Both the position numbers and the translations under genes were made by a program. The notes beneath the pieces were generated by a model. That model had not been told where the DNA came from. It searched no databases and was given only the letters and a program-made list of their open reading frames with translations. Shown piece by piece: positions 1 through 17,222 of a DNA stretch of 41,451 bases; position 1 is the first letter of the stretch; each line of letters opens with the position of its first letter. Source of the DNA: Methanomassiliicoccales archaeon. Lineage in GTDB: Archaea > Thermoplasmatota > Thermoplasmata > Methanomassiliicoccales > UBA472. Location of the stretch: positions 1 through 41,451 of the forward strand of contig JAJRAN010000110.1 of assembly GCA_028682915.1 (NCBI GenBank), read 5' to 3'.

Positions 1-333
1 GATCATCCTCTTCCCTTCCATTATCACCCTGACTTCGGTGTCGTCATCCTTAGAAACCCTTAGGATGTCCTTGACAGCCTTTGCTATCTTCTCGGCATCC
101 TTGACCACCGGTGCCTCGATCTCCTTGCCCTTGATATAACCGCCACCGACTCGTCCAGTCTTGAGACCTTTCTCAATTCCGGGCATATCGACGGCAATTG
201 TCCTCTTGGCAAGGCTACCGATGCGCATGATGGCGGGGTTCTTTAAAGGACTGATCGCCTCCAGTGGCAGGCCCTTTTCAATGAGCTTGCCCCTGTCGTC
301 GTACAAGTCTATCTTGTCCTTATATTTCGCCAT
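1..333 (-). CDS. mcrB: Methyl-coenzyme M reductase beta subunit, N-terminal part (runs off the window)
   Basis: This is the first 111 codons of the beta subunit of methyl-coenzyme M reductase, the enzyme that releases methane from methyl-CoM and coenzyme B. The N-terminus reads MAKYKDKIDLYDDRGK, followed by a PLEAISPLKNPAI segment, which is the hallmark start of McrB. A VGGGYIKGKEIEAP stretch matches the usual region before residue 75. The start is ATG at 331-333, preceded by a strong Shine-Dalgarno AAGGAGG about 7 bases upstream. The remainder and the expected mcrD, C, G and A lie beyond position 1. The gene follows tfuA on the same strand across a 313-base gap with its own promoter. Identification is from sequence recognition and is firm. 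Confidence 0.95.
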   Translation of the reverse strand, partial: MAKYKDKIDLYDDRGKLIEKGLPLEAISPLKNPAIMRIGSLAKRTIAVDMPGIEKGLKTGRVGGGYIKGKEIEAPVVKDAEKIAKAVKDILRVSKDDDTEVRVIMEGKRMI

Positions 334-646: not shown

Positions 647-1318
647 CTATTTTTTTGTTGATTTCGCGAAATCCTTCATTGCTTTTTTCACGTAGCGAAG
701 TATCCCTATAGCATCCTCCCTCTTAATATCGGCATAATCCTCGCTAACGAACTTTTCGAATTGCGATAATGACGAAGGGTCGAGCGCTCTCGCGGCCTCC
801 TCGATCAACTTCTCCTTCGTCCTCTTCGGGAAGTATATGCCCTTCATTTTCGCTAGCAGAACGTCCGCTTGAGCCGAACCGATTATACCCCTTGCACAAG
901 CGACTTCCAGGTTATGCCTCATGTTAACAAGCGGCTCGGACAGTGCTTCGAGGTCCTCGGGGTTGAAGATGAGGGCGACCTCATCGTCCCCGTCGATCTT
1001 ACCGCCTGAATACAGATCGTAGACTTTGCCGATCCCCAACATCCCCATGGTGTCGAGCTCGGACGCGCGGAGGGCGCCCATGCTTCCGCCCCCTACCACC
1101 TTGACGCCCTTCCGGATGAGGTCCAGTATCTCGCGGTGGCCGACCGCGGCCTCGCTCTGGAACACCCCGTCGATTATGGCCACCAATCGGACCGAACTGG
1201 GCAGGGACGGCAGGTCGCCCCGTTTTACTGGAGGCAGTAGATCGCAGGCATCGCCGACGATGGCCCTCGCCTCCTGGTGGGAGAGGCTCGGACCGAGGAA
1301 CACCACGCATGACGTCAT
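647..1318 (-). CDS. tfuA: TfuA-like protein, YcaO partner
   Basis: A 223-residue TfuA-family protein (core motif region TCVVFLGPSLSH at the N-terminus, then a GGGSMGALRASEL segment near residue 100, both typical of the family). In methanogens TfuA acts with YcaO to convert one glycine of McrA to thioglycine, probably by handling or delivering sulfur. The ATG at 1316-1318 directly abuts the ycaO stop (TGAATG), so the two are probably translationally coupled. The next gene downstream is mcrB, so the modifier genes sit immediately before the operon of their target. A hairpin plus T-run follows the stop. Function is from family knowledge; the enzyme target is supported by context. Confidence 0.9.
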   Translation of the reverse strand: MTSCVVFLGPSLSHQEARAIVGDACDLLPPVKRGDLPSLPSSVRLVAIIDGVFQSEAAVGHREILDLIRKGVKVVGGGSMGALRASELDTMGMLGIGKVYDLYSGGKIDGDDEVALIFNPEDLEALSEPLVNMRHNLEVACARGIIGSAQADVLLAKMKGIYFPKRTKEKLIEEAARALDPSSLSQFEKFVSEDYADIKREDAIGILRYVKKAMKDFAKSTKK

Positions 1319-2521
1319 TCAGCCTACCGTCCTCAATCTCCTACCAGCGCGCTCCTCGTCCATGGCGTGCACCTCCATCCCAGGGACGATGACCCTGACC
1401 ACGGGCACGTCCAGCTCCTTGCGGGTGAGATCCACCGCCACTGCCCTCTTGAATCCCTTCGCCCTCAGTCGCTCCAGCACGAACATGAGGTCGTCATAGA
1501 GGTCCGGGGCGTCGTATCCCTCGATGGACGCCAGCCCCTCCTTCCTCTCAGCAGGGCCGAACCACATGGAGTTCAGGCGCTTCATGCGATCGTACCCGAG
1601 CTGCCTGGCTGGCCCTCCCCGGGTGGTGTCCTCCCGCGCCCCGTGGATCTGGGTGAGGCGGCTCTGCGCCACCTCGGTCAGGGCGCGTATCACCGTGATC
1701 CTCGGGCTAAGGTGCGTCCCCATGCCTAGGCAGAGAAGGGCAGGGTCCTGCAGTCGCACATCGTCGGCGGCCGCAGCGAAGGTCGGCAGGCCGAGGTCGC
1801 TGGTCAGGTCCTTTAGGTGCACCTCGATGCCTTGCGAGACGAACTTCTGCAGCATCGATTGGATGAGCTGGTCATCGGTCGGGGGCTCGATGTCCGCCAC
1901 CGGCCGGCGCTTGGCCTCGCAGATTGACCAGGCGTCGCGCTCCACCACCTCGCAAAGGGCATGCACCACCGCCTCCTCCATGATGTTCCCCGAGGCCAGG
2001 CCGTTGGTGTTGGTCCTGAACAGGGGCAGGTCGAGGCGCGAGGTGTAGGGATGGAACACCGCGCTGGCCGGGACGAATACATCTTCCTTCTCCATCAGCT
2101 CGAAGCCCTTGACCCATCCCACGTTCCGCTGCATCACCACCGAGGCCGTCCGCTGCGGCAGGATCAGAGAGCGCGGGTCGACGGCGTTCTCTGAGGCGAG
2201 CATGTCCTCGACCGTCTTGCGGACGATGCGGTCCCCGCGCACCTCCCCGCTGTACCTCTCCAGGGCCTCCATTATCGCCGATACCTTCGCCTGTTCGGTG
2301 GAGGCGCCCTTGCCGTTGTACACGGTTATGGCGCCGCTGTCCGCGTCGGGCCTTATGCTCGAGAATACAGGAATCCCGACCCTGTCCAGGCCGGTGATGT
2401 CCGCGACGCGGGTGATGCCAGCGACCTTGCACAGGGGCTCGATGCGCCTCAGCGTCGTGAGCGGGTCGACGGTCCGCTGCCCGTCCGCGGTGTAGGTCTT
2501 CAGGGCGTGGCCGAGCTCCAT
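1319..2521 (-). CDS. ycaO: YcaO-type thioamide-forming cyclodehydratase homologue
   Basis: A 400-residue YcaO protein. The family uses ATP to activate a peptide backbone amide; with TfuA in methanogens it installs the thioglycine of McrA. The ATP-binding glutamate regions are visible as STEQAKVSAIMEALERYSGE around residues 94-113 and EEAVVHALCEVVERDAW around residue 182. Length is normal. The gene lies 48 bases after lrp and abuts tfuA. A TATA-like AATAAACC patch on the complementary strand around 2545-2555 could give it its own promoter in the lrp-ycaO gap. The neighbouring mcrB supports McrA as the substrate rather than a natural-product peptide. Confidence 0.92.
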   Translation of the reverse strand: MELGHALKTYTADGQRTVDPLTTLRRIEPLCKVAGITRVADITGLDRVGIPVFSSIRPDADSGAITVYNGKGASTEQAKVSAIMEALERYSGEVRGDRIVRKTVEDMLASENAVDPRSLILPQRTASVVMQRNVGWVKGFELMEKEDVFVPASAVFHPYTSRLDLPLFRTNTNGLASGNIMEEAVVHALCEVVERDAWSICEAKRRPVADIEPPTDDQLIQSMLQKFVSQGIEVHLKDLTSDLGLPTFAAAADDVRLQDPALLCLGMGTHLSPRITVIRALTEVAQSRLTQIHGAREDTTRGGPARQLGYDRMKRLNSMWFGPAERKEGLASIEGYDAPDLYDDLMFVLERLRAKGFKRAVAVDLTRKELDVPVVRVIVPGMEVHAMDEERAGRRLRTVG

Positions 2522-2569: not shown

Positions 2570-3043
2570 TCAGTGCGGGTTCGAGGCGGGCAGGGTCATC
2601 AGTTCCAGCTCGGCGTTGGGGTTGAGGGGGATCTTCTCGATGAGGATGTCCACCTCCACGTTCTGGATGTTGGGGATCTTGAGTATCCTGTTCTGGATGA
2701 GGTCATAGAGCAGATCCACGCTCTTGGAGTACACCTCGCACAGGAGGCTGTGGTCGCCGAAGACCTTGTGCACATACTCGATCTCGTCGAACTGCCTCAG
2801 CTCGTCGATGACCGAGCCCATGGCCGGCCCAACCACCTCGAGGCCGATGATGGCCCTCATCATCCCGAGCTTCGATGAGCTGGTGGTGATGGTGTAGCCG
2901 GAGATGTAGCCCTCCTGCTCCAGCTTGGAGATGCGCCGGCTCACCGTCGCCTTGGATACCCCGAGCTTCAGGGCGATGTTCCCCAGGCTCTCGCGCGAGT
3001 CCTGCCTTAGCATCTTCAGTATGTTGAGGTCGGTCAGGTCCAT
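2570..3043 (-). CDS. Lrp/AsnC family transcriptional regulator
   Basis: A 157-residue protein with the classic Lrp/AsnC architecture. The N-terminal helix-turn-helix starts MDLTDLNILKMLRQDSRES and continues with LGVSKATVSRRISKLEQEGYI (residues about 27-47). A RAM-type ligand-binding and oligomerisation half follows from about residue 65. Such proteins bind DNA as dimers or octamers and often sense amino acids. The ATG is preceded by AGGAGGG and a TATA-like CTTAATAGG near 3085-3093. It is the first gene of the lrp-ycaO-tfuA-mcrB series, so control of itself and of the methanogenesis genes downstream is plausible but unproven. Confidence 0.9.
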   Translation of the reverse strand: MDLTDLNILKMLRQDSRESLGNIALKLGVSKATVSRRISKLEQEGYISGYTITTSSSKLGMMRAIIGLEVVGPAMGSVIDELRQFDEIEYVHKVFGDHSLLCEVYSKSVDLLYDLIQNRILKIPNIQNVEVDILIEKIPLNPNAELELMTLPASNPH

Positions 3044-3195: not shown

Positions 3196-3900
3196 TCAGC
3201 CTTTCTGCCTGGACTTGGGGATCGGCCCCTGTGCCATTGTCTTGAGCGCCTTGACCGTCTCTGCCAATCTAACCTTGGGTATGCCCACTAGCATCTCCTC
3301 GGGCTTGATGTCGCTGGTCTTGCGGCAGCCGAAGCATCCCAAGGACATGTTCATGTTCCCCGTCTTCATCGGGACCACGGTGGAGTCGGCGCAGGTCGCT
3401 TGCACCGAGGCCATCTCGACAGTGACCCTTCCCCCCATGCTGAAGGTGCTGGCGGCGGGGACCAGCCAGAATACCTGCTCTGGCATCCCGACCACGACCA
3501 CCACGTCCGGATCGAGCGTGGCCTTGCTCAACGGCGCCAGGGCCGTCGCCTCGTTGGACAGTGGCTCCAGCTGAGGCCTCACTGAGATGGTCTTCGCTGC
3601 CGCATCAGCGGTCTCGTACATCCCCATGTTGTGATGGAACTCTCCCGCCTTCACCTTGTCTGGCAGCGGTACAATGCCCAATGCGCTTCCGCCCACTGGG
3701 CAAGCTTGCTTGTCCGCGGGAACCGTGAGCTTTTCTCCCTTCCTTGCCCTCATTATCGCCTGGCAGTGCCTGATCGGGGTCTCGGGGACCTTGTATCCTT
3801 CTGGAAGGGGCTTCCCCTTCTTGATCAAGGTGATGGCCACGGGCTCGGTCTGCAAACCAAGTGATTCCATGAATACCTTCGACATCTCGACGTTATCCAT
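3196..3900 (-). CDS. DUF169 family protein
   Basis: A 234-residue DUF169 protein (COG2043), a family common in methanogens and of unknown function. Conserved cysteines are visible: HCQAIM (C46), QACPVGGSALG (C67), C170 and the CFGCRK motif (C189, C192). Several could bind metal or a cofactor. An upstream in-frame ATG at 3933 exists, but the TATA box at 3941-3946 predicts transcription starting near 3919, so the ATG at 3900 is preferred. It diverges from mtrA-mtrH across a 301-base region rich in inverted repeats. Its role in methyl transfer is only suggested by location. Confidence 0.85.
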   Translation of the reverse strand: MDNVEMSKVFMESLGLQTEPVAITLIKKGKPLPEGYKVPETPIRHCQAIMRARKGEKLTVPADKQACPVGGSALGIVPLPDKVKAGEFHHNMGMYETADAAAKTISVRPQLEPLSNEATALAPLSKATLDPDVVVVVGMPEQVFWLVPAASTFSMGGRVTVEMASVQATCADSTVVPMKTGNMNMSLGCFGCRKTSDIKPEEMLVGIPKVRLAETVKALKTMAQGPIPKSRQKG

Positions 3901-3940
3901 GAGGTTCAAACCTCTGGACCTTCGAAGGACCATGCATTTA

Positions 3941-4201: not shown

Positions 4202-4972
4202 ATGTCCGCGGAATCGTCGTGGCCGATCATCCAGGGGGACTATCTGCTGGGAGACCCTGACAGCCCTGTCGCGGTCCTGATAATCGGACGTGGCCAAGTC
4301 GAAATTCCCGGCGATCGCTTCTGCATCATGGGGACGGTGAAGACCGAGAACATGGGGCTGGAGAAGGTCATCGTCAACATCGTCAGCAACCCGCGCATCC
4401 GATTCTTGATCGTCTGCGGCAAGGAGGAATTCGGGCATTTCCCCGCGGACGCGGTCATGAGGATCTGGAGGAACGGGATTGACGACAGGAAGAGGATCAT
4501 CGACTCAAAGTCAGCGATTCCATATATCTGCAACATCGGCAAGGAGGCGGTGGATCGGTTCCGCTCTCAGGTGGAAGTGGTGGACCTGGTCCATCCCAAG
4601 GAGTCAGAGGAGATCGTGGCCTACGACCCGATGTACATGTTCGAGCCCGAGAGGCGGGACGAGCTCCTTGCGGCCATCTTCGACTGCGTGGCCAGGGACC
4701 CGGGGAGGCTAAAGGCCGAACCGTTGCTGGTACAACCTCCTGGCCTCATGGTCGAACCCAAGAAGGCCATCAAATCCATCGACAAGCTGGCCTTGGAATT
4801 CACCAATCAGATGCTGAGGCTGCCAAGCGAGAAGCTGTCCACGGAGGCCTCGCTGATCGCGGTCTCCGAGGAGATGGGCATCGTCATCGACCCGACGGAC
4901 GGGCTGGTCTTCGACGTGCCCTCCGTGGAGTTCGCTGGAAAGCTGAAGCTGTATTATCGAGGGGGCAGGTAG
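4202..4972 (+). CDS. mtrA: MtrA-like corrinoid methyl carrier, soluble form
   Basis: A 256-residue homologue of subunit A of tetrahydromethanopterin S-methyltransferase. The N-terminal corrinoid domain is clear: WPIIQGDYLLGDPDSPVA, then VKTENMGLEKVIVNIVSNP, then FLIVCGKEEFGH, where H79 matches the histidine that coordinates cobalt in MtrA. Canonical MtrA ends in a membrane helix that anchors it to the sodium-pumping complex. Here no hydrophobic segment exists, and the last 90 residues form a different soluble tail. The other Mtr subunits (B-G) are absent from the window. A strong AGGGAGG precedes ATG 4202. mtrH follows after one base, so the two form an operon. I infer a cytoplasmic methyl-transfer pair. 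Confidence 0.9.
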   Translation: MSAESSWPIIQGDYLLGDPDSPVAVLIIGRGQVEIPGDRFCIMGTVKTENMGLEKVIVNIVSNPRIRFLIVCGKEEFGHFPADAVMRIWRNGIDDRKRIIDSKSAIPYICNIGKEAVDRFRSQVEVVDLVHPKESEEIVAYDPMYMFEPERRDELLAAIFDCVARDPGRLKAEPLLVQPPGLMVEPKKAIKSIDKLALEFTNQMLRLPSEKLSTEASLIAVSEEMGIVIDPTDGLVFDVPSVEFAGKLKLYYRGGR

Positions 4973-4973
4973 G

Positions 4974-5864
4974 ATGCTGAAGTTCACCAACAAGCAGACG
5001 ACCTTCAAGATCGGGGGCGTGGAATTCGGAGGGCAGCCTGGGAAGCGGAGGACGGTCATGGTCGGTTCCATCTTCTACCCCAGGCACAGCGTGGTCGAGG
5101 ACCGGGTCGAGGGCAGGGTCAAGGAAGGCGCGGTGGAGCGTTTGGTGGGCGACCTGGCTCGCGCCGCCGAGGAGACGGGGTGCCCGACCGCCCTGATGGT
5201 CTACGCGGAGACGGAGAGGTGCATGCGCAGCCACCTGGAGAAGGTCGCGGACGCTTACCAGGGACCATTGTTCATTGACTCCCCGAGCGCCGATGTCCGC
5301 ATCGCCGGGGTCGTCAAGGCCAATGAGCTGGGCGTGCAGAAGAGGGTCATCTACAACACCATCAACGCCGGGGTGACGGACAAGGAGCTCGAGGCGCTGC
5401 GGCGCAACGAGGTCAAGTCGGCGGTCCTGCTGGCCTTCAATCCAGGAGACATACAGGCCAAGGGCAAGATCTACCTCCTGGAGAACGGTGGCGGGATCCT
5501 CCCCCAGGGCATGCTGGAGATGGCGCAGGCCCACGGCGTGGAAATGCCTCTGCTGGACATGGCCGTGATGGCCTCCGAGCAGGGCGCGGGCTCCGCGCTG
5601 CGCGGCATCATGATCGCCAAGGCCAAGTGGGGCCTTCCCTGCGGGTGCGCCATGCACAACGCGGTGGAGTCCTATCCCCCGCTGGCCAAGCTCCAGGGAG
5701 AGGACAGGAAGCTCTTCCGCTACGTGGACGTGGCGGCGGCGGTCATGCCCATAATGGCCGGCGCGGACTACGTCATGTACGGCCCCATCGAGTTCGCCCG
5801 GCGCACCTTCCACGCCGCGGCCTTCGCGGACCAGCTCATGGCCCAGGCGGCCGCTGAGCTATAA
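4974..5864 (+). CDS. mtrH: MtrH-like methyltetrahydropterin:corrinoid methyltransferase
   Basis: A 296-residue MtrH homologue. MtrH is the subunit that transfers the methyl group from methyl-tetrahydromethanopterin to the MtrA corrinoid; it has a TIM-barrel fold related to pterin-binding methyltransferases. The start MLKFTNKQTTFKIGGVEFGGQPGK and the TVMVGSIFYPRH segment are characteristic. IDSPSADVR (about residue 101) and VIYNTINAG (about 124) correspond to pterin-binding strands. The start codon lies one base after the mtrA stop. The partner pterin (methanopterin or folate type) cannot be read from sequence. In a methyl-reducing lineage the reaction could run in either direction. Confidence 0.92.
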   Translation: MLKFTNKQTTFKIGGVEFGGQPGKRRTVMVGSIFYPRHSVVEDRVEGRVKEGAVERLVGDLARAAEETGCPTALMVYAETERCMRSHLEKVADAYQGPLFIDSPSADVRIAGVVKANELGVQKRVIYNTINAGVTDKELEALRRNEVKSAVLLAFNPGDIQAKGKIYLLENGGGILPQGMLEMAQAHGVEMPLLDMAVMASEQGAGSALRGIMIAKAKWGLPCGCAMHNAVESYPPLAKLQGEDRKLFRYVDVAAAVMPIMAGADYVMYGPIEFARRTFHAAAFADQLMAQAAAEL

Positions 5865-5890
5865 TCAGCAGGTATTGGCGAGGGAGATCG

Positions 5891-6748
5891 TCAGAGCTCG
5901 ATCTCGGAGCCCGCCGGCATCAGCTCGAAGCCGACGAAGCGGTCGGAGATGTTCTTCATGGCCTCGAAGCCGGTGCAGTGGAGCGGGGCGATGCGGTCCA
6001 CGCCCAGGTTCTTGAGGTGGTCCATGGTCTTGCGGATGCGGTCCTGCGACCCGCCCCCGAGGTGGAAGCCGCCCATGACCATGAGTATCTTGGAGCCGGT
6101 GGACTTCTTGGCGTGGGTCACGATGTTGACGATCCCGGGATGCGAGCACCCGGTTATCACGATGACCCCGCGCTTCTGCGTCAGGAACAACGCCTGCTCG
6201 TCCATCACCATGTCCTCTATCGTCCGGCCCTCCTCCTCCCGGAGGAAGTTGAGGGTGGGCTCGAAGTCCGTCACCCTGGGCACCTCTCCCGAGGTCCTCA
6301 CCCCGGGGACGATCTCCACCGGGGTGGAGTTGAAGCTCATCTTCGCCTTGGCCAGGGCGGAGGTGACGTGATCCGGGGGCGAGATGTCGACCTTGGACTC
6401 GCCACCAGTGGAGAAGCGCTTGCCCACGAAGGTCCTGGGATGGGTGTGGATGGGGACCCCGGCCTCGATGAATGGCAGCAGCCCGCCGACGTGGTCGTAA
6501 TGCCCATGGGAAATGAACACGGCGCTGAAGTCCTTGGGCTCGGCTCCGACCGCCCTGAGGTTGTTGAGCAAGGCGGCCTCGGAGGCGCCGGCGTCGAAGA
6601 GCACCTTCTGGCCAGCGTCGGTCTCCACCATCACGGAGAAGCCCTGCTCGCCCATGAACTGCTTGTTGGGGGAATCCAAGCGCTTGACCATGCGGGACTG
6701 CACGTAGGGCGTCCCGCACATATTGTCCACCAGGGTTATGACGCGCAC
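5891..6748 (-). CDS. MBL-fold metallohydrolase of the COG1237 type
   Basis: A 285-residue metallo-beta-lactamase-fold protein. The metal motif is HGHYDHVGG (H81, H83, D85, H86), with later ligands in TGCSHPG (about residue 200) and LHCTGFEA near the C-terminus. COG1237 includes the archaeal dihydropterin-ribofuranosylaminobenzene phosphate synthase of methanopterin synthesis (MJ0301 type), but the family has many paralogues and the exact reaction is uncertain. The start is GTG at 6748, directly abutting the ramA stop (TAAGTG), so it is coupled to the activase gene. This linkage favours a role in corrinoid or pterin methyl metabolism. It converges with mtrH. Confidence 0.85.
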   Translation of the reverse strand: MRVITLVDNMCGTPYVQSRMVKRLDSPNKQFMGEQGFSVMVETDAGQKVLFDAGASEAALLNNLRAVGAEPKDFSAVFISHGHYDHVGGLLPFIEAGVPIHTHPRTFVGKRFSTGGESKVDISPPDHVTSALAKAKMSFNSTPVEIVPGVRTSGEVPRVTDFEPTLNFLREEEGRTIEDMVMDEQALFLTQKRGVIVITGCSHPGIVNIVTHAKKSTGSKILMVMGGFHLGGGSQDRIRKTMDHLKNLGVDRIAPLHCTGFEAMKNISDRFVGFELMPAGSEIEL

Positions 6749-8392
6749 TTAGACATCCCTCTTGACGATCTTGAGCTCGCTGAAGCGCATGGCGTCCTCC
6801 GTGCACACCGTCTCGCAGTTCTTGCAGGCGGTGCCGAGGCAATACTCGGTGGCGATGCGGACCTTGAAGCGCTTGTCGCCTACCTTCTCGACGCGAAGAG
6901 CCCGCTCCGGGCACTCGCGCATGCACCTCTTGCAGCCGATGCATCTCTCGAACTCGGCAATCAGGTAGACGCCCACGTGGTCCAGGGTCTTGAGGCCCTT
7001 GTCCCCCAGCACCGGTATGTCGGCCGAGACTATGCGCAACGTCTCCTTGGGGCGCTTGATGTCCGGCAGGGGGCGGTAGCCCTTCCCCACCAGCATGGCG
7101 TTGAACATCTCCCAGGGCATGCCCTCGAGCCAGTAGGCGATCTCGTTGACGTAGATGTCCTCGAAGACCTTGCTGGTGGCGAACATGATGTGCCTGGCCG
7201 CCATGGAGTCGGCGATGCTCTGCATCTCGTCCATGGCCTCGTCCTTGACCAAGAGGTCGTAGGCCATCATCAGCGAGGTGTTCCCGCATTGGTAGGTGCG
7301 CTCCAGCACCCTCGGCACCAGCCCGCAGGTCTGGGCCTTGATCGGGTCCACGTAGGTGCCCGAAGCCCCGGCCAGGTACATGGACTTGACCTCCTCGTCC
7401 TCGATGCCGACCTCCTCGATGAGCGTGCGGTGGCCGGCGCGGATCGCGCCCATGGCCTTACCCGCCTCCAGGACGTCGTGCTCGTCGATGTACACGCTGT
7501 CCTGCAGATGGATCCTGCGGTCCCCGGTCATGAGCCTCGGAAGCTTGATTATTCCCGTCTCTAGGCCGACGGCGACGGCCGCCACCACTCCCGTCCCGGT
7601 AATGCCCCGGGCCTTGACGTTGGAGGTGCGCCTGACCTCGCCGTTGTAGGGGTCCACCACGTTCCCTGGCTGCGCTTTCAGCCGATCGTCCAAAACGAAG
7701 TTCTGCCAGCTTCCGTCCGGGTTGGCGACCAGGTCGGAGATGGCCATCGGCGCGGCCAGCATCCCGAACTCTATGCTCTGGCCCTCCATCGCCGGGCCGG
7801 CAGCCGCGGAGCCGGTCCACAGCTCCCCGTCCTTGTAGAGCCCCATCTCGGCATTGGTGCCGTAGTCCGTAACCATACAGGTTTCCTTGCGGTCCAACAT
7901 GTGGGACTTGATAATCATGGCAAGTGCGTCCGCGCCGATCTCGTGCCGTATGGAAGGGGGGCACCGTATCTCCGCCTCTGGGTGCACCGAGCCGATGCCC
8001 AGGTCCGAGGCCACGCGGGTGTGCGCTCGCCTCTCCGGCACTTTGACGTTCAGCCTCTGCAATATGCTCTGGCCCGCGTAGGCCAGGTCCCTGATCTCGA
8101 TGTTCTCAAACATGGAGAGCTGCGCCGGGTTCCCGCAGATGGCTATGCGCTTGATCTCCTTGGGTTCAGTGTTGTGGAGCCCTATCAGCTTGTCCACGGT
8201 CTCGATGATGATGCGATGCCCGACCTCCGACCCGTTCTCCATCCAGAAGTGGAGGTGGTCCATGATGTTGGCCCCTGGGAGGGGATGACGCATGGTTATG
8301 GCCGTGGAGATGATCTTCCCCCTTTGGTCCAGGTCGACGAGATGCGTGCGGTATCCGCTCGTGCCGAGGTCTAGCGCAATTCCAAAGGCCAT
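6749..8392 (-). CDS. ramA: RamA-like ATP-dependent corrinoid reductive activase
   Basis: A 547-residue homologue of RamA, which uses ATP to reduce inactive Co(II) corrinoid proteins of methylamine and methanol methyltransfer to active Co(I). The N-terminal ASKHA fold begins MAFGIALDLGTSGYRT, with later phosphate-binding segments VTDYGTNAEMGL and YLAGASGTY. The C-terminus carries two iron-sulfur clusters: CIGCKRCMRECP (about residue 485) and CLGTACKNCETVC (about residue 520). Length matches RamA. An open frame continues 78 codons upstream to 8626, but the palindromic TATA box at 8424-8435 places transcription start near 8402, so ATG 8392 is chosen. The likely clients are the corrinoid proteins at 4202 and 16539. 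Confidence 0.92.
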   Translation of the reverse strand: MAFGIALDLGTSGYRTHLVDLDQRGKIISTAITMRHPLPGANIMDHLHFWMENGSEVGHRIIIETVDKLIGLHNTEPKEIKRIAICGNPAQLSMFENIEIRDLAYAGQSILQRLNVKVPERRAHTRVASDLGIGSVHPEAEIRCPPSIRHEIGADALAMIIKSHMLDRKETCMVTDYGTNAEMGLYKDGELWTGSAAAGPAMEGQSIEFGMLAAPMAISDLVANPDGSWQNFVLDDRLKAQPGNVVDPYNGEVRRTSNVKARGITGTGVVAAVAVGLETGIIKLPRLMTGDRRIHLQDSVYIDEHDVLEAGKAMGAIRAGHRTLIEEVGIEDEEVKSMYLAGASGTYVDPIKAQTCGLVPRVLERTYQCGNTSLMMAYDLLVKDEAMDEMQSIADSMAARHIMFATSKVFEDIYVNEIAYWLEGMPWEMFNAMLVGKGYRPLPDIKRPKETLRIVSADIPVLGDKGLKTLDHVGVYLIAEFERCIGCKRCMRECPERALRVEKVGDKRFKVRIATEYCLGTACKNCETVCTEDAMRFSELKIVKRDV

Positions 8393-8624: not shown

Positions 8625-11600
8625 ATGATCTCGGTCCTTCACGTCGATGACGAACCAGCATTCCTCGAGCTCACCCGCGCCTACCTGGAGATGCAGAAGG
8701 ACATCATGGTCGACGGGGCACCTTCTTGCCTCGAGGCCATCGAGATGCTCAAGAACCACGGGTACGACGTGGTGGTCGCGGACTTCCAGATGCCGGGGAT
8801 GGATGGCCTGAAGCTCCTGGCGCACGTCCGCAGCCGCTACGGCGAAATGCCTTTCATCCTCTTCACCGGAAAGGGCCGGGAGGAGGTCGTCATCCAGGCG
8901 CTCAACCAAGGCGTCGATTTCTATCTGCAGAAGGGGGGCGCGGCCAAGGCTCAGTTCGCCGAGCTGGCCCACAAGATCCGCCTGGCGGTGGAGAAGAAGA
9001 AGAAGGCGGAGGCGCTGCAGCTGGCCGAGTTCTCCGTCGACCAGGCGGCCATCATGACTCTCTGGAGCGACGAGAGGGGGCGGATCATCAAGGCCAACAT
9101 GGAGGCGACCAGGCAGCTGGGTTACACCACCTCCGAGCTGCAGTCGATGGGGTTGGGGGACATCGACCCCAGCTTCACACCCGAGAACCTGGAGCGGTTC
9201 TGGGCCGCCCTTTCCAACAATAAGAGGCTGATGCAGGACTCGGTCATGCGCAAGAAGGACGGGAGCCTGGCGCCCGTGCGCTTCGTGGCCAACTACCTCG
9301 AGGCCAACGGGCGGAGCTACAACTTCGCCTTCGGTTGGGACATCGGCGACAGCATCCGGTCCGAGAAGGCGCTGCGCGAGAGCGAGGAGCGCTATCGCAC
9401 CCTGGCCGACAACCTGCCAGATTTCATATTCATAGCTAACAGGGAAGGGGAGATACGCTTCGTCAACGACGCCCTGTCCAAAAGGCTCTCCCAGGAGCCC
9501 AAGGAGCTGGTGGGCAGGAGCCTCTCCGACGTCTTCCCGCCCTCGATGGCCACGAGGTACAGGCAATACCTGGCCCAGGTCATCGAGAGCGGGGAGGGGA
9601 TGAGGATGGAGGTCGGGGGCGATGGGGAGGAGCAGATGCGGTGGATGGACATGATCCTGGTGCCGCTGAAGGACCTCTCCGGCCAGGTAGTGGAGGTGAT
9701 AAGCACCGCCCGGGACATCTCCCACACCAAGCAGACGGAGCAGCAGCTGGCGGAGTCCGCCAGCTCCTACAGGTTATTGGCGCAGAGCTTACCTGGCCTG
9801 ATCTATCGCGTCCATCTGCGCGAGGATGAGCGTCTGCAGCTCTTCAACGACCCCCAACCTATCACGGGCTATACCATCGACGAGCTGGGACCGGACCTCA
9901 AATACATGCTCCATTTCATGGACAAGACCGACCGGCCCTTGGTGCAGGCCACGGTGGAGGAGGCCGTCCGCCAAGGGAACCCGTTCGAGGTCGAGTACCG
10001 CATCCAGAGGAAGGACGGCGAGATCCTCACGGTGATTGAGAGAGGGCGCCCCATCCAAGGCTCCGACGGCCTCCCGCTTTACATCGACGGCGTCGTCTTC
10101 GATGTCTCGAGGAGGCGGCAGGCCGAGGAATCGCTCCGCGCCAGCGAGCGCAAGTTCCGGGAGCTGGCGGATCTCCTGCCAGCGTTGGTCTTCGAGTGCG
10201 ACGCCGACGGCGATATCAACTTCATCAACGAGACGGCCAGGGCCATGGTCGGGTACGGAAGGGAGGACGTGGAGAAGGGCCTGTCCATCTACGAGATCAT
10301 CTCAGAGGAGGACCGGCCCAGGGCCAGGTCGGAGCTCGCGCGCCTGATGGAGGGGCACTCCTGCGAGGGGGCCGGGTTCGAGCTCGCCCGCAAGGGCGGG
10401 GGAGCGTTCCCCGCGACCATCCATTGCGCCCCGATGCACAAGGACGGGGTGGTCTCCGGAATCCGCGGGCTGTTCGTCGACGTCTCGGCCCTGCGCCAAT
10501 CGGAAAGGATGCGGGAAGCGACCAACGTCATCGCCCAGGCGGCCATCTCCGACACCTCCTTGGAGGAGCTGTATATCAAGATCCATGCCATGCTGCAGGA
10601 ACTGATGCCCCTGGACAACTTCTTCATCGCCCTCTACGGCGAGGAGAAGGATGAGCTCACCTTCCCCTATTTCAAGGACGAGAGGGACCCGACCCCTGAG
10701 CCGAGGAGGAAGGGGCGGGGGATCACGGAGTACGTGCTGCATTCCGGCGCGCCGTTGCACCGGGACACCTTCGGGATCGAGGAGATGTCCAGAAGGGGCG
10801 AGATAGACATCATAGGCACGCCGCCGGTGGACTTCATCGGGGTGCCGCTACTACTGAAGGGCAAGGTCATCGGCCTCATGGCCGCCCAGAGCTACCGGCC
10901 CGAGGTCGTGTTCTCCGCCCAGCAGCTGGACGTCCTCACCTTCGTGTCCGGCCAGGTGGCGATGGCCATCGAGCGCAAGCGACAGGAGGTGGAGCTGGAA
11001 CGCTACGTCGGACTGCTCAAGACCACCTTCGAGAGCACCGATGACGGGCTGCTCATCGTGGACAAGGAGGGGCACACCCTCGCCTACAACGAGCGCTTCG
11101 TGGAGATGTGGTGCATACCAGACATCATCATGCGCACCAAGGAGGACCAACGCATGCTGGGCTTCGTACTGGATCAGCTGGTCGAGCCTGAGGCCTTCAT
11201 GCAGAAGGTGGAGGAGCTCTACCGCGAGCCCAACAAGACCAGCATGGACCTTATCAAGTTCAAGGACCGGAGGTTCTTCGAACGCTACTCCCAGCCCTTC
11301 TACCTGGAGAACGACATCGTCGGCCGCATCTGGTCGTTCCGCGACGTGACCGAGCGCACCTGGGCCGAGGAGGCGCTGAACAAGTCGGAGCGCGAGCTCA
11401 AGTACATCATCAACAGCGCCAAGGACGCCATCTTCGTGAAGGACCAGGTGGGGAAGTACGTGATGGCCAACGAGGCCATGGGCAAGCTCTTCCACATATC
11501 CCCGAGCGAGGTCCAGGGCAAGGGGGACGAGGACATCTTCGGGGAGGAGGCGGCGCGCTACAACGAGCTCAAGGACCGCCAGGTCCTGGCCGGGAGCACG

Positions 11601-12419
11601 GTGGAGGAGGAGGTCGCCTGGAACATCGACGGCGTGCCTCACACCTTCAGCGTCATCAAGGTGCCGCTGAGGGACGAGACCGGCTGGGTCTTCGGCATCT
11701 GCGGCATCGCCCGCGACACCACCGAGCGCAAGCAGGTGGAGAAGGCGCTCAAGGACGCCAACGAGTCGCTCAACCTCCTGAGCAGCATCACCCGCCACGA
11801 CGTCCTGAACCAGCTCATGGTCATACGGGGATACTCGGACCTGGTCCGCTCTTCGCTGAAGGACCAGAAGCTCCTGGACTACATGGACAAGGTGGAGAGG
11901 GCCACCCGCAACATCCGCCAGCAGATCATCTTCACCCGCGACTTCCAGAGGCTGGGAGTTGTGGAGCCGAGGTGGCAGTCGGTGGAGGAGCTCCTGGACA
12001 AGTCCCTGACCACGCTGGAGGCGGGGAAGGTGGACATCTCGGTGGACCTGGGAGGGCTGGAGCTCTATGGCGACCCGATGCTGGAGAAGGTGTTCTACAA
12101 CTTGCTCGACAACACCCTGCGCCACTCGGAGAAATCCACGCGCATATCCGTCTCCTGCCACAGGCGGGGCAGCGACCTCCTGCTGGTGTACGAGGACGAC
12201 GGCATGGGCGTGCCGGACGAGGACAAGGAACGCATCTTCGACCGCGGCTTCGGCAAGAACACCGGCCTCGGGCTCTTCCTGGTGCGCCTGATCCTGGACG
12301 TCACGAGGATCCAGGTTAAGGAGAGCGGGGAGTTCGGCAAGGGAGCGAGGTTCGAGATGCTGGTCCCGGACGGAGCTTACCGCTTCCGAGAATGGGACGA
12401 CGCGGAGCGGGAGGCCTAG
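8625..12419 (+). CDS. Giant hybrid sensor histidine kinase (REC, six PAS, GAF, HisKA, HATPase)
   Basis: A 1264-residue cytoplasmic kinase without membrane helices. An N-terminal receiver domain (residues 1-120) has acidic residues D8 and D9 and phospho-acceptor D53 in VVVADFQMPGMDG. Four PAS domains follow (about 130-625), then a GAF domain (about 630-785) and two more PAS domains (about 795-1040). The dimerisation helix carries ITRHDVLNQL with phospho-histidine H1058, and the ATPase has NLLDNTLRHS (N box), DDGMGVPDEDK and GLGLFLV. The architecture resembles archaeal multi-PAS kinases such as MsmS, which regulates methyltransferase genes in Methanosarcina. Its position between ramA and the CoM methyltransferase suggests sensing of redox state or substrate; the signal is unknown. 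Confidence 0.92.
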   Translation: MISVLHVDDEPAFLELTRAYLEMQKDIMVDGAPSCLEAIEMLKNHGYDVVVADFQMPGMDGLKLLAHVRSRYGEMPFILFTGKGREEVVIQALNQGVDFYLQKGGAAKAQFAELAHKIRLAVEKKKKAEALQLAEFSVDQAAIMTLWSDERGRIIKANMEATRQLGYTTSELQSMGLGDIDPSFTPENLERFWAALSNNKRLMQDSVMRKKDGSLAPVRFVANYLEANGRSYNFAFGWDIGDSIRSEKALRESEERYRTLADNLPDFIFIANREGEIRFVNDALSKRLSQEPKELVGRSLSDVFPPSMATRYRQYLAQVIESGEGMRMEVGGDGEEQMRWMDMILVPLKDLSGQVVEVISTARDISHTKQTEQQLAESASSYRLLAQSLPGLIYRVHLREDERLQLFNDPQPITGYTIDELGPDLKYMLHFMDKTDRPLVQATVEEAVRQGNPFEVEYRIQRKDGEILTVIERGRPIQGSDGLPLYIDGVVFDVSRRRQAEESLRASERKFRELADLLPALVFECDADGDINFINETARAMVGYGREDVEKGLSIYEIISEEDRPRARSELARLMEGHSCEGAGFELARKGGGAFPATIHCAPMHKDGVVSGIRGLFVDVSALRQSERMREATNVIAQAAISDTSLEELYIKIHAMLQELMPLDNFFIALYGEEKDELTFPYFKDERDPTPEPRRKGRGITEYVLHSGAPLHRDTFGIEEMSRRGEIDIIGTPPVDFIGVPLLLKGKVIGLMAAQSYRPEVVFSAQQLDVLTFVSGQVAMAIERKRQEVELERYVGLLKTTFESTDDGLLIVDKEGHTLAYNERFVEMWCIPDIIMRTKEDQRMLGFVLDQLVEPEAFMQKVEELYREPNKTSMDLIKFKDRRFFERYSQPFYLENDIVGRIWSFRDVTERTWAEEALNKSERELKYIINSAKDAIFVKDQVGKYVMANEAMGKLFHISPSEVQGKGDEDIFGEEAARYNELKDRQVLAGSTVEEEVAWNIDGVPHTFSVIKVPLRDETGWVFGICGIARDTTERKQVEKALKDANESLNLLSSITRHDVLNQLMVIRGYSDLVRSSLKDQKLLDYMDKVERATRNIRQQIIFTRDFQRLGVVEPRWQSVEELLDKSLTTLEAGKVDISVDLGGLELYGDPMLEKVFYNLLDNTLRHSEKSTRISVSCHRRGSDLLLVYEDDGMGVPDEDKERIFDRGFGKNTGLGLFLVRLILDVTRIQVKESGEFGKGARFEMLVPDGAYRFREWDDAEREA

Positions 12420-12486: not shown

Positions 12487-13500
12487 TCAGCCCTTGACGG
12501 CCTTGACCATTGCCTGCAGGTTGACCAGCGGGACGCGCGCTGCCAATCCGCAGCCAGGAGCCACCAGGTTGAACCCGGAGTTCTTGACGCGGAGGGCGTC
12601 GAGCCTCACGTCCTCAGGCGTTCCCTGCAACAGTGGGCGGACCACGCCGATGTTGCCGACCAGGGCAGCGCGTCCGTTGACGATGTCCACCGCCTTCTCC
12701 GGCTGCACCTTCTCCTCGATGCTGAGTCCACTCACTCCGGTGGCCACCATGTGGTCCAGCAGGACGGTGGTGTCCCCGCAGATGTGCAGGACGGTCTTGG
12801 CGTCCCCGGGGTTCGAGAAGCATTCCTTGATGTAGGGCTTGGCATACTCGTCGAACATCTCTGGGGATAGCATGTCAGTTCCCGCGGAGGGGTCGCTCAT
12901 GACGATGACGTCCGCCCCGGCCTTAGCCAAGGCCTCGACGTACGCCTTCTCCATCTTGGTGGCGACCTTGAGGGCCTTGTGCACGGCCTCAGGGTTCGTT
13001 ATGATCCAGAGGAGGAGGTTCTCGGTGCCGACCATGTGGCCGGCGATGGTCAGCGGCCCGGTGGTGCCGGCGACGATGGGCAGCTCCTTGCTGTATTTCT
13101 GCTTGGCGATCCTGACGCCCTCTACGACCGCAGGTATCCTTCCCTTGTACAAAGCACCTATGGGAATGTCATCAGGGATGGTGTTCTCGTCACAAGAGTG
13201 GGCTTTGACCATGGGGGTCCTGTCCATCTTGCCCAGGTCGACGCGGCAGCCCATGACCTCAGCCTCGACGGTCAGGCAGAAGGGCAACCTGGCGCACTCC
13301 ACTCCCCAAACCTTATTGGGAGCGGCGGAGAGCTCAGCCATCCTGTGCGGGTCAACGTGCGCGTCCGGCCAGTAGACGCCAACAGCCTCCATGGCGTCAA
13401 TGGTCGCAATCTGCGTGAAGCAGACTGCTGGGGGCCGGTCCAACTTCTTACGGGCGAGCGCGGCGAGCACTCGGTCCCTCGGGGTCATGTTGTTAGACAT
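12487..13500 (-). CDS. Methylcobamide:CoM methyltransferase, MtaA/MtbA family
   Basis: A 337-residue member of the uroporphyrinogen-decarboxylase-fold methyltransferases that move a methyl group from a methylated corrinoid protein to coenzyme M. The zinc site is visible as LHICGDTT (H and C, about residue 236) together with VAPGCGLAARVP near the C-terminus. Length equals MtaA/MtbA (about 339). A GTG at 13530 is in frame, but it overlaps the TATA box at 13531-13539, whereas ATG 13500 has GGAGG 8-12 bases upstream; 13500 is chosen. Whether it serves methanol or methylamine corrinoid proteins cannot be decided. The corrinoid gene at 16539-17180 is the obvious partner. Confidence 0.9.
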   Translation of the reverse strand: MSNNMTPRDRVLAALARKKLDRPPAVCFTQIATIDAMEAVGVYWPDAHVDPHRMAELSAAPNKVWGVECARLPFCLTVEAEVMGCRVDLGKMDRTPMVKAHSCDENTIPDDIPIGALYKGRIPAVVEGVRIAKQKYSKELPIVAGTTGPLTIAGHMVGTENLLLWIITNPEAVHKALKVATKMEKAYVEALAKAGADVIVMSDPSAGTDMLSPEMFDEYAKPYIKECFSNPGDAKTVLHICGDTTVLLDHMVATGVSGLSIEEKVQPEKAVDIVNGRAALVGNIGVVRPLLQGTPEDVRLDALRVKNSGFNLVAPGCGLAARVPLVNLQAMVKAVKG

Positions 13501-13530
13501 ATACGACTTCCTCCATTTTTTTCTTAACAC

Positions 13531-13572: not shown

Positions 13573-15561
13573 TTAATCTTTCGACCCTCGGTCAACGATT
13601 GTTGGCTTGCCAGTAGCTCGGGCTCGGACCTCGACCCAATTCAAAATCTCCCTCGAAGTCCGGACGCCGGTACGGCACTTCTTCATCTCCACCTCGAGAA
13701 GGACGGAGATGTCCTTCCCGCCAGCCTCCTCGACCTTTTTGCTGACGTAGGCGGTCGCTCCCTCCTTCGCCGCGTAGAGGGCCTGCTCCAGCCTCTCCAC
13801 CTCGATAGGCTCCTTGTCAGGGACGTAGACGAAGAAGGTGTTATCCCGCTTGTGGATCTGCACCTCCACGCTCTCCGCCACCATGCTGCAGACCGCTCCA
13901 ACGGCGTTGCCGACATCGTGGTCCGGGGGCACTATGACCTTGGCGCCTAGGAGGCTTTCTACCAATGGGACGTAAACGTGGGCCGGGGCACCGATCCCCA
14001 CCACCGGTCTGTCCAGCCTGCAGGCCACGTCTATGCCGTTGGCCTGAGCCATCCCAGTGATGGCGTCCAGAAGGAACTCGGCCGCCTTGCCCGTGGGGAC
14101 CTCCCCGGAGGCGTCGAGGACGGCCTTCTTCAATAGCTCCTCCGCCACCCTCGCCCCCATGGTCCTCCAGAACGTCGCCACGAATTCCTGCTTGTTCATC
14201 CCGTTCCGAGTGGATACGATCTCGACCCCCAGCTCCGCCGCCTCCCTGGCCCCGTGCTGGTAGACGCCCGCGACGTGGAGCACGTCCGTGGGTGTCAGAC
14301 CAGTGGAGATGAGGTAGCTCTTGGCCTTCAGCCTCTTCACGTAATCAGGCGCGAGATACAATCCCTCAAGGCTGTCCACCAGCTCTCTTAGGGTCATCGG
14401 TCCATGCTCCGAGATGGCCTGGAAGACCTTCATCTCGTTCTCCGGCAAGCGCGAGGGGTCGCGCGGGAAAGCCACCAGGAACTCGAGCTCGCCCGAGTCC
14501 CTCATCCTTTGCACCAGACCGGGGTTCTCGGCGCAGGCCACCTCCAAAGGCAGCACGCGATCCGGCCCGATGACGAGGCGGCCAGCGTTCACGTCCAGGC
14601 GCGAGTCCCCTCCTAGTCCGGCCGTCCAAATGTCGATGGCCCGGACCCTCGTCCTCCATTGGCCCACCACCGCCCCCTCCTTCCCCAGCCTGGGGAAGCC
14701 CTGGTCGAGGTAGGCTATGTCCGTGCTGGTGCCACCTATGTCCACGACTATGCATCGGTCCTTGCGGGAGAGGGCCATTCCGCCCATCAGGCTCGCGGCC
14801 GGGCCGGAGAGTATGGTTTCGACAGGACGCTCCCTGGCCTTCCTCAGGTTCATCAACGTCCCGTCCCCCCGGAAGACCATGATGGGGGCGGATATGCCCC
14901 TACCAGCGATGGAGGCCTCCACCCCGCGCAAGAACTCGTCGATGATCGGCAGGAGACGGGCATTGAGCACCGCGGTGACCGTCCTCTCGAGTATACCGAG
15001 CTCTGCCGTGAGCTCGTGACCGGTGACCACCGGCAATCCCTTCTTCTCATGGATCATGCGCCGGAGGGCTTCCTCGTGCTGAGGGTTCACCACGCTGAAG
15101 AAGGAGGACACCACCATCGCGTCCATATCCACGCATGCCTCGTCCACCGCCGCCTCAGCCTCCCTCATATCCAAGGGTGCCAAAGGACGGCCTCGCATGT
15201 CATGGCCCCCGACGATGAACTTGGCGCGGGAGGCGCCGAGCTGCCAATCCGGCTCCGGCCTCCAGCCTATGCCGATGAGGCCCACCGCGCCCCCCTTGCC
15301 CTGGAGCAAGGAGTTGGTGGCGAGGGTGGTCGACAGACCCACCAGCCTGACCTCGGAGGGCTCGAAACCTCCCTGAGAGGTCGCGGCCTCCACGGCCTGG
15401 ACAAGCCCTTGGGAAAGGTCTTGGTAGGTCGTGGGAGCCTTGGCCTTGGCCACGACCTCCTTGCTCTCCAAGTCGACGATCGCGGCGTCGGTGTATGTGC
15501 CACCAGTATCGATGCCCAGGCCCAATCTCCTCTTGTCCGCTCCCATGCGCCGATCTCCCAT
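13573..15561 (-). CDS. Hydantoinase/oxoprolinase family protein (ASKHA fold)
   Basis: A 662-residue protein of the HyuA/oxoprolinase family, which hydrolyse cyclic amides with ATP. The phosphate-1 loop is GLGIDTGGTYTDAAIVD near residues 14-30 and the second nucleotide motif is CIVVDIGGTSTDIAYLD near residue 270. A third glycine-rich segment, VVGIGAPAHVYVP, lies near residue 527. Members are found beside methyltransferase genes in methanogens, where the substrate is undefined. The downstream CoM methyltransferase starts 72 bases after its stop. A TATA-like TTAAATAAT on the minus strand (about 15590-15600) precedes the start. It could act on a methylated cyclic amide or serve as an accessory ATPase; neither is shown. 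Confidence 0.85.
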   Translation of the reverse strand: MGDRRMGADKRRLGLGIDTGGTYTDAAIVDLESKEVVAKAKAPTTYQDLSQGLVQAVEAATSQGGFEPSEVRLVGLSTTLATNSLLQGKGGAVGLIGIGWRPEPDWQLGASRAKFIVGGHDMRGRPLAPLDMREAEAAVDEACVDMDAMVVSSFFSVVNPQHEEALRRMIHEKKGLPVVTGHELTAELGILERTVTAVLNARLLPIIDEFLRGVEASIAGRGISAPIMVFRGDGTLMNLRKARERPVETILSGPAASLMGGMALSRKDRCIVVDIGGTSTDIAYLDQGFPRLGKEGAVVGQWRTRVRAIDIWTAGLGGDSRLDVNAGRLVIGPDRVLPLEVACAENPGLVQRMRDSGELEFLVAFPRDPSRLPENEMKVFQAISEHGPMTLRELVDSLEGLYLAPDYVKRLKAKSYLISTGLTPTDVLHVAGVYQHGAREAAELGVEIVSTRNGMNKQEFVATFWRTMGARVAEELLKKAVLDASGEVPTGKAAEFLLDAITGMAQANGIDVACRLDRPVVGIGAPAHVYVPLVESLLGAKVIVPPDHDVGNAVGAVCSMVAESVEVQIHKRDNTFFVYVPDKEPIEVERLEQALYAAKEGATAYVSKKVEEAGGKDISVLLEVEMKKCRTGVRTSREILNWVEVRARATGKPTIVDRGSKD

Positions 15562-16538: not shown

Positions 16539-17180
16539 TTACCGGTTCTTGATGAGCTCGGAAGCGATTTTCACTGCCTCGATGGCGTCGTAGCCCCATG
16601 CGTCGGCACCAATCTGGGTGGCGAACTCCTTCGAGGTCGCACCGCCGCCAATCATGGTCTTCACCTTGGGCTTCATGTTGCCTTCCTTGGCCATGCGCTC
16701 GATCTCCTTCATGCCCGCCAGGGTGGGGGTCATGAGGGTGGATGTCGCGATGATGTCGACGCCCTCGCTCTTGGCCTTCTCGATGATGTTCTTAATGGGA
16801 ACATCGCGGCCTAAGTCGAAGATGGTCATGCCAGCGCCGGTGAGCATCGCCTTCACGATGTTCTTGCCGATGTCGTGGACATCTCCCTCGACGACGCAGA
16901 TGACGACCTTTCCAGAAGCGCCCATCGAGCCGACCTTCAGCTTGGGAAGGACGACATCCAGGGACGCATACATGGTCTGGGCGGAGAGAAGAACCTGGGG
17001 CAGATAGTACTCCTTCTTCTCATACTTCTGACCCACTACCTCCATGCCCTTGCTCAGGCCATTGAAGATAATGTCCTTCGCGTCGATCCCCTGAGCCAAA
17101 GCCTGCTCAGAGAGCGGCTTCGCTTCCTTAATCTTACCTTTCACAACAACTTCAGCGAGCTGTGCAAGTACGTCTGACAA
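16539..17180 (-). CDS. Corrinoid protein of the MtbC/MtmC/MttC type
   Basis: A 213-residue methyltransferase-associated corrinoid protein. The N-terminal helical cap domain (about 1-85) precedes the cobalamin-binding Rossmann domain with the signature EGDVHDIGKN, where H102 would ligate cobalt. TSTLMTPTLAGM (about residue 145) and MIGGGATSKEFATQIGADAWGYDA complete the pocket. A GTG at 17210 is in frame, but AGGAGGGAG lies inside those first codons and 9 bases before TTG 17180. TTG also gives the usual family length and start (MSDVLAQLAE), so it is preferred. The substrate methyltransferase gene is not adjacent, so the substrate remains open. Confidence 0.93.
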   Translation of the reverse strand: MSDVLAQLAEVVVKGKIKEAKPLSEQALAQGIDAKDIIFNGLSKGMEVVGQKYEKKEYYLPQVLLSAQTMYASLDVVLPKLKVGSMGASGKVVICVVEGDVHDIGKNIVKAMLTGAGMTIFDLGRDVPIKNIIEKAKSEGVDIIATSTLMTPTLAGMKEIERMAKEGNMKPKVKTMIGGGATSKEFATQIGADAWGYDAIEAVKIASELIKNR

Positions 17181-17222
17181 ACTCCACTCCCTCCTATGGG
17201 AATTGGCCACCGATTATATTAG

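Follow-up and report, generated by a model that had tools for sequence, protein, structure and literature searches.

A soluble MtrA–MtrH pair beside the methyl-coenzyme M reductase genes of a Methanomassiliicoccales archaeon: a candidate methyl shuttle from tetrahydrofolate to coenzyme M

The prevailing view of Methanomassiliicoccales is that they are obligate H2-dependent methyl reducers. What, then, could be the role of MtrA and MtrH, two subunits of the membrane complex MtrABCDEFGH, in a member of this order? The question is raised by a stretch of 41,451 nucleotides (GenBank assembly GCA_028682915.1, contig JAJRAN010000110.1; UBA472), which we call the window and which is one contig (C82) of a draft genome of 1.84 Mb that is 93.7% complete. 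A first-pass annotation, made from the window alone, had read the pair as a soluble corrinoid–pterin methyl shuttle, uncoupled from sodium pumping and served by its own reactivation system, and had called it undescribed. The soluble shuttle remains the best reading of the locus, whereas the novelty of the system and the dedicated reactivation did not withstand wider comparison. We consider it rather probable that MtrA and MtrH form a two-step soluble shuttle that carries methyl groups from the tetrahydrofolate (THF) pool to coenzyme M (CoM) in this methanogen, and that MtrAH probably links the folate pathway to methane formation. In what follows, GTDB families are coded f1 to f6, genomes G, loci L and contigs C. 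The two genes are:

4202–4972, plus strand: mtrA, soluble form (PF04208; matches to structures 5laa and 5l8x; alignment; AlphaFold2 model)
4974–5864, plus strand: mtrH, pterin:corrinoid methyltransferase subunit (PF02007; structure matches; residue columns)

Residues 3–140 of MtrA match PF04208 (E 8.6e-49). His79, named as the cobalt histidine from the beginning, lines up with the cobalt ligand of MtrA (His84; PMC4915002), and all 16 sequences of the alignment have it. The rest of the cobalamin site (K47, T48, E49, N50, G52 and N59) is kept as well: E49, which corresponds to Glu54, and K47/T48 in the KTEN motif are conserved in 15 of the 16 rows, and N50 and G52 in all of them. The cobalamin domain (about residues 1–145) is followed by a conserved C-terminal domain of about 100 amino acids that replaces the membrane helix. 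The predicted lack of an anchor was borne out, the highest mean hydrophobicity over 19 residues being 1.1, too low for a membrane helix, whereas the canonical MtrAs used for comparison reach 1.6–2.8 near residues 205–218. The tail, first estimated at 90 residues, is kept throughout the order, and in an AlphaFold2 model (mean pLDDT 84) it is helical with a small beta part. No Pfam family was found for it, and the significant Foldseek matches were MtrA structures only. Among the 80 matches listed, full-length relatives that include the tail belong to this order only, with labels of Methanomassiliicoccales, Methanomassiliicoccaceae, Methanomethylophilaceae or broader groups containing them; a search for MtrA relatives in viral contigs found none.

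MtrH, which starts one base past the mtrA stop as first described (4972/4974), matches PF02007 (E 2.5e-80), the Methanosarcina mazei MtrH structure 9qtp (E 5.6e-59) and the MtgA structure 6sj8 (E 9e-43). Its pterin-site residues D102, N128, D195 and N229, present in 12 of the 13 aligned rows, equal Asp103, Asn129, Asp196 and Asn230 in M. mazei numbering and are common to MtrH and MtgA. Two other residues are lost in all 13 rows, namely Asp5, which forms a salt bridge with MtrB, and Arg239, part of a basic patch suggested to hold the tetrahydromethanopterin (H4MPT) tail (PMC12774963). One relative, G053 (L054, 2744–4329), has a divergent mtrH/mtrA pair that has lost catalytic residues (MtrH N128G, D195N and N229D; MtrA E49A), changes that may reflect decay or a new role.

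No mtrB–G genes had been seen in the window, and no full mtr operon came to light elsewhere: mtrE was not found in this genome and 60 relatives (0/61; positive controls found), mtrB, C, D, F and G not having been searched individually. Mch, which is specific to H4MPT, was likewise found in none of the 61 genomes searched. MetF is present in 37 of the 61, this genome included. Here its contig also encodes MetV, FTHFS and a Pterin_bind protein that is of the methyl-THF methyltransferase type. The genes of carbon monoxide dehydrogenase/acetyl-CoA synthase (CODH/ACS) lie on another contig. When genomes at least 90% complete were compared, MetF occurred in 20 of 22 with mtrA vs 9 of 25 without it (Fisher p 2e-4, a test that ignores kinship and takes the genomes as independent), and CODH/ACS in 20 of the 22. 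We favour THF rather than H4MPT as the likely methyl carrier because Mch is missing, FTHFS, MetF, MetV and CODH/ACS are present, and MtrH keeps its pterin residues while the contacts to the H4MPT tail and to MtrB are lost. CODH/ACS could rely on the separate Pterin_bind protein, in which case MtrAH would be available for CoM.

On the acceptor side, the likely partner of MtrAH is MtaA. The MtaA of the window (12487–13530) bears the HxC...C zinc motif, and the MtaA paralog uroD2 has the same MtaA-type motif. In G041 (L050), uroD2, mtrA and mtrH lie head to tail in one operon, and uroD2 overlaps mtrA by 4 bases. From this gene content we infer a route that begins with MtrH, which would use methyl-THF to methylate the cob(I)amide of MtrA. 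The methyl-MtrA so formed would donate its methyl group to CoM through a cytoplasmic MtaA-family zinc methyltransferase (the window mtaA, or uroD2 in some relatives), and the adjoining methyl-coenzyme M reductase (Mcr) would reduce methyl-CoM to methane. No sodium would be pumped, because the membrane subunits are missing.

The distribution of the methanol enzyme MtaB gives this route a possible weight. MtaB is missing in 11 of the 22 mtrA-bearing genomes, this one included, vs 1 of the 25 mtrA-less genomes (Fisher p 4e-4, not corrected for kinship; the mtrA-less G046 and G050 were scored as MtaB-present from partial matches), and the MtaB-less genomes are spread over several families. This pattern suggests, short of proof, that MtrAH can take the place of methanol as the chief point at which methyl groups enter methanogenesis. 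We put forward, tentatively and as a possibility that may well prove wrong, that in the MtaB-less genomes (the UBA472-like genus, f3, f4 and f5) methyl groups reach methane mainly or solely through MtrAH, and that methane would be made from formate/CO2 or acetate via THF, CODH/ACS, MtrAH and an MtaA-type enzyme, with neither H4MPT nor the Mtr pump. To our knowledge, such a route has no experimental demonstration.

The surroundings of mtrAH place the pair in a methanogenesis context that the first-pass annotation had missed, since bases 1–333 encode the N-terminus of McrB and the locus thus borders the mcr operon; at the matching point in relatives, mcrA-G-D-B continue beyond the mcrB start. 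The other features of the locus are:

1–333, minus strand: mcrB, first 111 codons up to the contig end, which cuts the mcr operon; McrB identity 93% with the congener G001 and 62–83% with others
647–1318, minus strand: tfuA, partner in McrA-glycine thioamidation (NF033432 over cut-off)
1319–2521, minus strand: ycaO, McrA-glycine thioamidation protein (TIGR03266 over cut-off)
2570–3043, minus strand: AsnC/Lrp-type regulator conserved in the island (synteny across families; family assigned from sequence)
3196–3933, minus strand: DUF169 (COG2043) protein kept between ycaO/AsnC and mtrA (PF02596; synteny)
5891–6748, minus strand: COG1237-like hydrolase of the metallo-beta-lactamase (MBL) fold, partner of ramA (PF00753; nearest solved structures 3h3e and 2p4z)
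6749–8392, minus strand: ramA, corrinoid reductive activase of 547 amino acids with its ATG at 8392 (TIGR04270; start codon; tree)
12487–13530, minus strand: mtaA, methylcobamide:CoM methyltransferase with zinc motif HIC...C (PF01208; PRK06252 subfamily over cut-off; motif)
13573–15561, minus strand: hyuA-like island protein of the hydantoinase A family (PF01968/PF05378; synteny)
16539–17210, minus strand: corrinoid protein of the island, MtxC type (PF02310/PF02607; TIGR02370 just below cut-off)

PF04208 was detected in 37 of 120 relatives, including nearly all f1 genomes, and mtrAH lies near mcrBDGA-tfuA-ycaO in the relatives as in the window. The order mtrA, mtrH, MBL, ramA recurs in most f1, f3 and f5 genomes, so this layout, whose lack of conservation would have counted against the first-pass reading, is not due to chance. 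The usual arrangement in these families is mcr-tfuA-ycaO-AsnC-DUF169-mtrA-mtrH, facing MBL-ramA and then uroD2 and/or mtaA, hyuA and the corrinoid protein. The DUF169 gene adjoins mtrA in f1, f3 and f5 and is duplicated in some genomes (L037). Directly upstream of mtrA-mtrH in L091, L093 and L094 lie two genes, one for a CobW-like GTPase and one for a conserved small protein (about 155 amino acids), a pair also seen before uroD2 in UBA472-like genomes and after a corrinoid protein in L053. Divergent from ramA, the window carries a histidine kinase gene (8625–12419, plus strand; 1264 amino acids, with a receiver and many PAS/GAF domains), whose position holds uroD2 or cobW in several relatives. 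The corrinoid protein at 16539–17210 has no adjoining substrate-specific methyltransferase and is kept in the island across the whole order. On another contig of this genome (C31; L166, 859–5280), a second RamA is predicted to form a separate methyl-transfer cluster together with a corrinoid protein, a URO-D methyltransferase and an MtaA-like protein.

As first described, ramA on the facing strand abuts the gene of a COG1237-like MBL enzyme (6748/6749), which ends 26 bases after mtrH. RamA scores 702 bits with TIGR04270 (cut-off 500) and has a RACo-type ASKHA domain and two C-terminal [4Fe-4S] motifs (Fer4 domains). In the MBL enzyme the metal motif HxHxDH is intact, with H81, H83, D85 and H86 invariant in the alignment. 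Its ortholog (more than 200 bits) is restricted to this order in a phylum-wide sample of 390 genomes; the next matches reach at most 137 bits, and RamA was not seen in the fetched flanks of these. No characterised ortholog of the enzyme was found, and a look through the literature for a connection of COG1237 with dihydropteroate synthesis (MJ0301) yielded nothing of use. The HyuA-like ASKHA protein near mtaA (also at 6407–8374 of L050 and 6553–8619 of L051) is possibly another corrinoid activase; in two f6 genomes that have no ramA-MBL, the hyuA-like gene converges on mtrH, and the two overlap by 4 bases.

Do RamA and the MBL enzyme, then, form one dedicated module with mtrAH, serving the reactivation of MtrA? 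The four genes adjoin in most f1, f3 and f5 genomes, 28 of the 29 genomes (among 121) with the MBL ortholog also carry mtrA, and in eight genomes at least 90% complete (G003, G009, G012, G015, G023, G024, G025 and G028) the RamA of the locus is the sole one over the TIGR04270 cut-off. In an initial tree of 55 RamAs the idea of a RamA dedicated to MtrAH likewise seemed sound (100/100 clade), but the clade broke up once the second RamAs of f6 and f2 were added. Tree and synteny show, however, that the RamA of the locus is orthologous to that of the mcr-tfuA-ycaO-AsnC-ramA-mtaA-corC island of seven Methanomassiliicoccaceae-like genomes without mtrA (G026, G029, G032, G035, G045, G049 and G051). 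Moreover, G005 (99% complete) has an intact MBL-ramA block with other genes in place of mtrAH, in G024 mtrAH lies on another contig, away from ramA-MBL, and mtrAH occurs without MBL in G004, which has ramA, and in families f6 and f2. Because orthologous RamA occurs in mtrA-less islands and MBL-ramA occurs without mtrAH, the reading as a reactivation module fails, and we hold it to be very improbable. Judged by these same genomes, mtrAH, MBL and DUF169 together appear to be an additional block inserted in an older mcr-ramA-mtaA island, and the MBL gene travels with ramA. RamA is probably a general activase of the island, not dedicated to MtrAH; where MtaB is present, a second RamA is usually found near mtaB. 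It may still act on MtrA, since it is the sole RamA over the cut-off in the eight near-complete genomes, and it probably re-reduces inactive Co(II) MtrA as an island-wide activase. About as improbable as the reactivation module is that the pair is left over from an ancestral Mtr complex and is decaying, either without a current role in methyl transfer or reused for another acceptor. Pump-less MtrAH remnants are known in other archaea (PMC9635834), and G053 has lost N128, D195 and N229 of MtrH and E49 of MtrA; but a decaying pair would not retain the catalytic residues, the new tail and the mtrA-mtrH arrangement, which are kept across f1, f3, f4, f5 and part of f6.

The shuttle could also run in reverse, the methyl group of methylated compounds, carried on CoM or a corrinoid protein, passing through MtrA and MtrH to THF for oxidation or acetyl-CoA synthesis, as with MtgA of Desulfitobacterium. 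This is the direction of the closest characterised soluble relative of MtrH, since MtgA methylates THF (PMC7154762), and of the methanol-disproportionation scheme of Speth & Orphan (PMC6147122), and it fits the presence of CODH/ACS in 20 and of MtaB in 11 of the 22 mtrA-bearing genomes. In the other 11, however, MtaB is missing and there is no methanol-derived donor; the step from methyl-CoM to methyl-pterin is endergonic without a sodium gradient; and mtrAH sits next to mcr. We regard the reverse direction as unlikely. Several points nevertheless weigh against transfer from THF to CoM. With MtaB present in half of the mtrA-bearing genomes, either direction is possible, and the survey of substrate methyltransferases covered MtaB, with MttB, MtmB, MtbB and the methylsulfide enzymes outside it. 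Without coupling, transfer in the CoM direction would waste about 30 kJ/mol. The MtrH residues alone leave THF unproven, because, although the canonical H4MPT patch is missing, Arg236, the THF-tail residue of MtgA, is not clearly conserved in the MtrH rows either; and the associations with MetF and MtaB rest on few independent events because their p-values ignore kinship. Finally, mcrA was not found in the genome's own bin, as the contig ends inside mcrB.

If the THF-to-CoM shuttle is true, MtrAH would be fed by THF and free of the pump, next to mcr and in genomes that have lost the methanol enzyme, and some members of the order could take their methane carbon from formate, CO2 or acetate. Mtr chemistry would also be separated from sodium coupling, so that each of the two would be more accessible to work with soluble proteins. 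The revised view of RamA is of consequence as well: adjacency alone would imply a private reactivation system, which the wider comparison does not support. The new testable point is the possible THF-fed methane route in the MtaB-less relatives, the shuttle reading itself dating from 2018. Apparently new are the insertion of mtrAH and MBL in the island and the MtaB pattern; a search of the literature, covering open-licence papers, turned up neither the placement in the island nor the MBL companion nor the MtaB pattern.

The system itself has been described before. Speth & Orphan (2018, PMC6147122) reported a soluble MtrAH with a C-terminal extension and no mtrB–G in the 'Lake Pavin' clade of Methanomassiliicoccales (MALP/UBA248) and, with acetate or methanol taken to be the substrates, proposed a methyl-THF:CoM methyltransferase. 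In 2024, a survey of 243 genomes (PMC10804542) recorded both mtrA and mtrH for most of the environmental clade and offered CO2 use as a speculation. UBA472 is a close relative of the Lake Pavin clade, and the MtrA relatives with the same tail include a UBA472 contig (L083). Shared by the two are a C-terminally extended mtrA, a divergent mtrH, the lack of mtrB–G, and a methyl branch of the genome that uses THF rather than H4MPT. Linkage to mcr-tfuA-ycaO, the MBL companion and ramA are not discussed in that paper, and MALP has mtaABC, whereas this genome and many relatives are without mtaB. With the membrane complex MtrABCDEFGH (PMC10998594, PMC12774963) the pair shares the MtrA corrinoid domain with its cobalt histidine and the pterin site of MtrH, but here there is no anchor helix and no MtrE, the Asp5–MtrB salt bridge and the basic H4MPT-tail patch are lost, and a C-terminal domain is added. 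MtgA-MtgC of Desulfitobacterium (PMC7154762) similarly uses a soluble MtrH-family enzyme to move methyl groups between a corrinoid protein and THF; its corrinoid partner, however, is of the MtxC type and not MtrA, and it has no CoM step. MtrA, MtrH and MtrAH fusions of Asgard and other non-methanogens (PMC11291895, PMC9635834) also lack a sodium pump, but those genomes have no Mcr, whereas here mtrAH adjoins mcr. Lastly, RamA resembles the methylamine RamA of Methanosarcina (TIGR04270) as an ASKHA activase with two C-terminal [4Fe-4S] motifs that scores over the family cut-off, and differs from it in lying in an mcr-mtaA island, with MtrA as a putative substrate protein.

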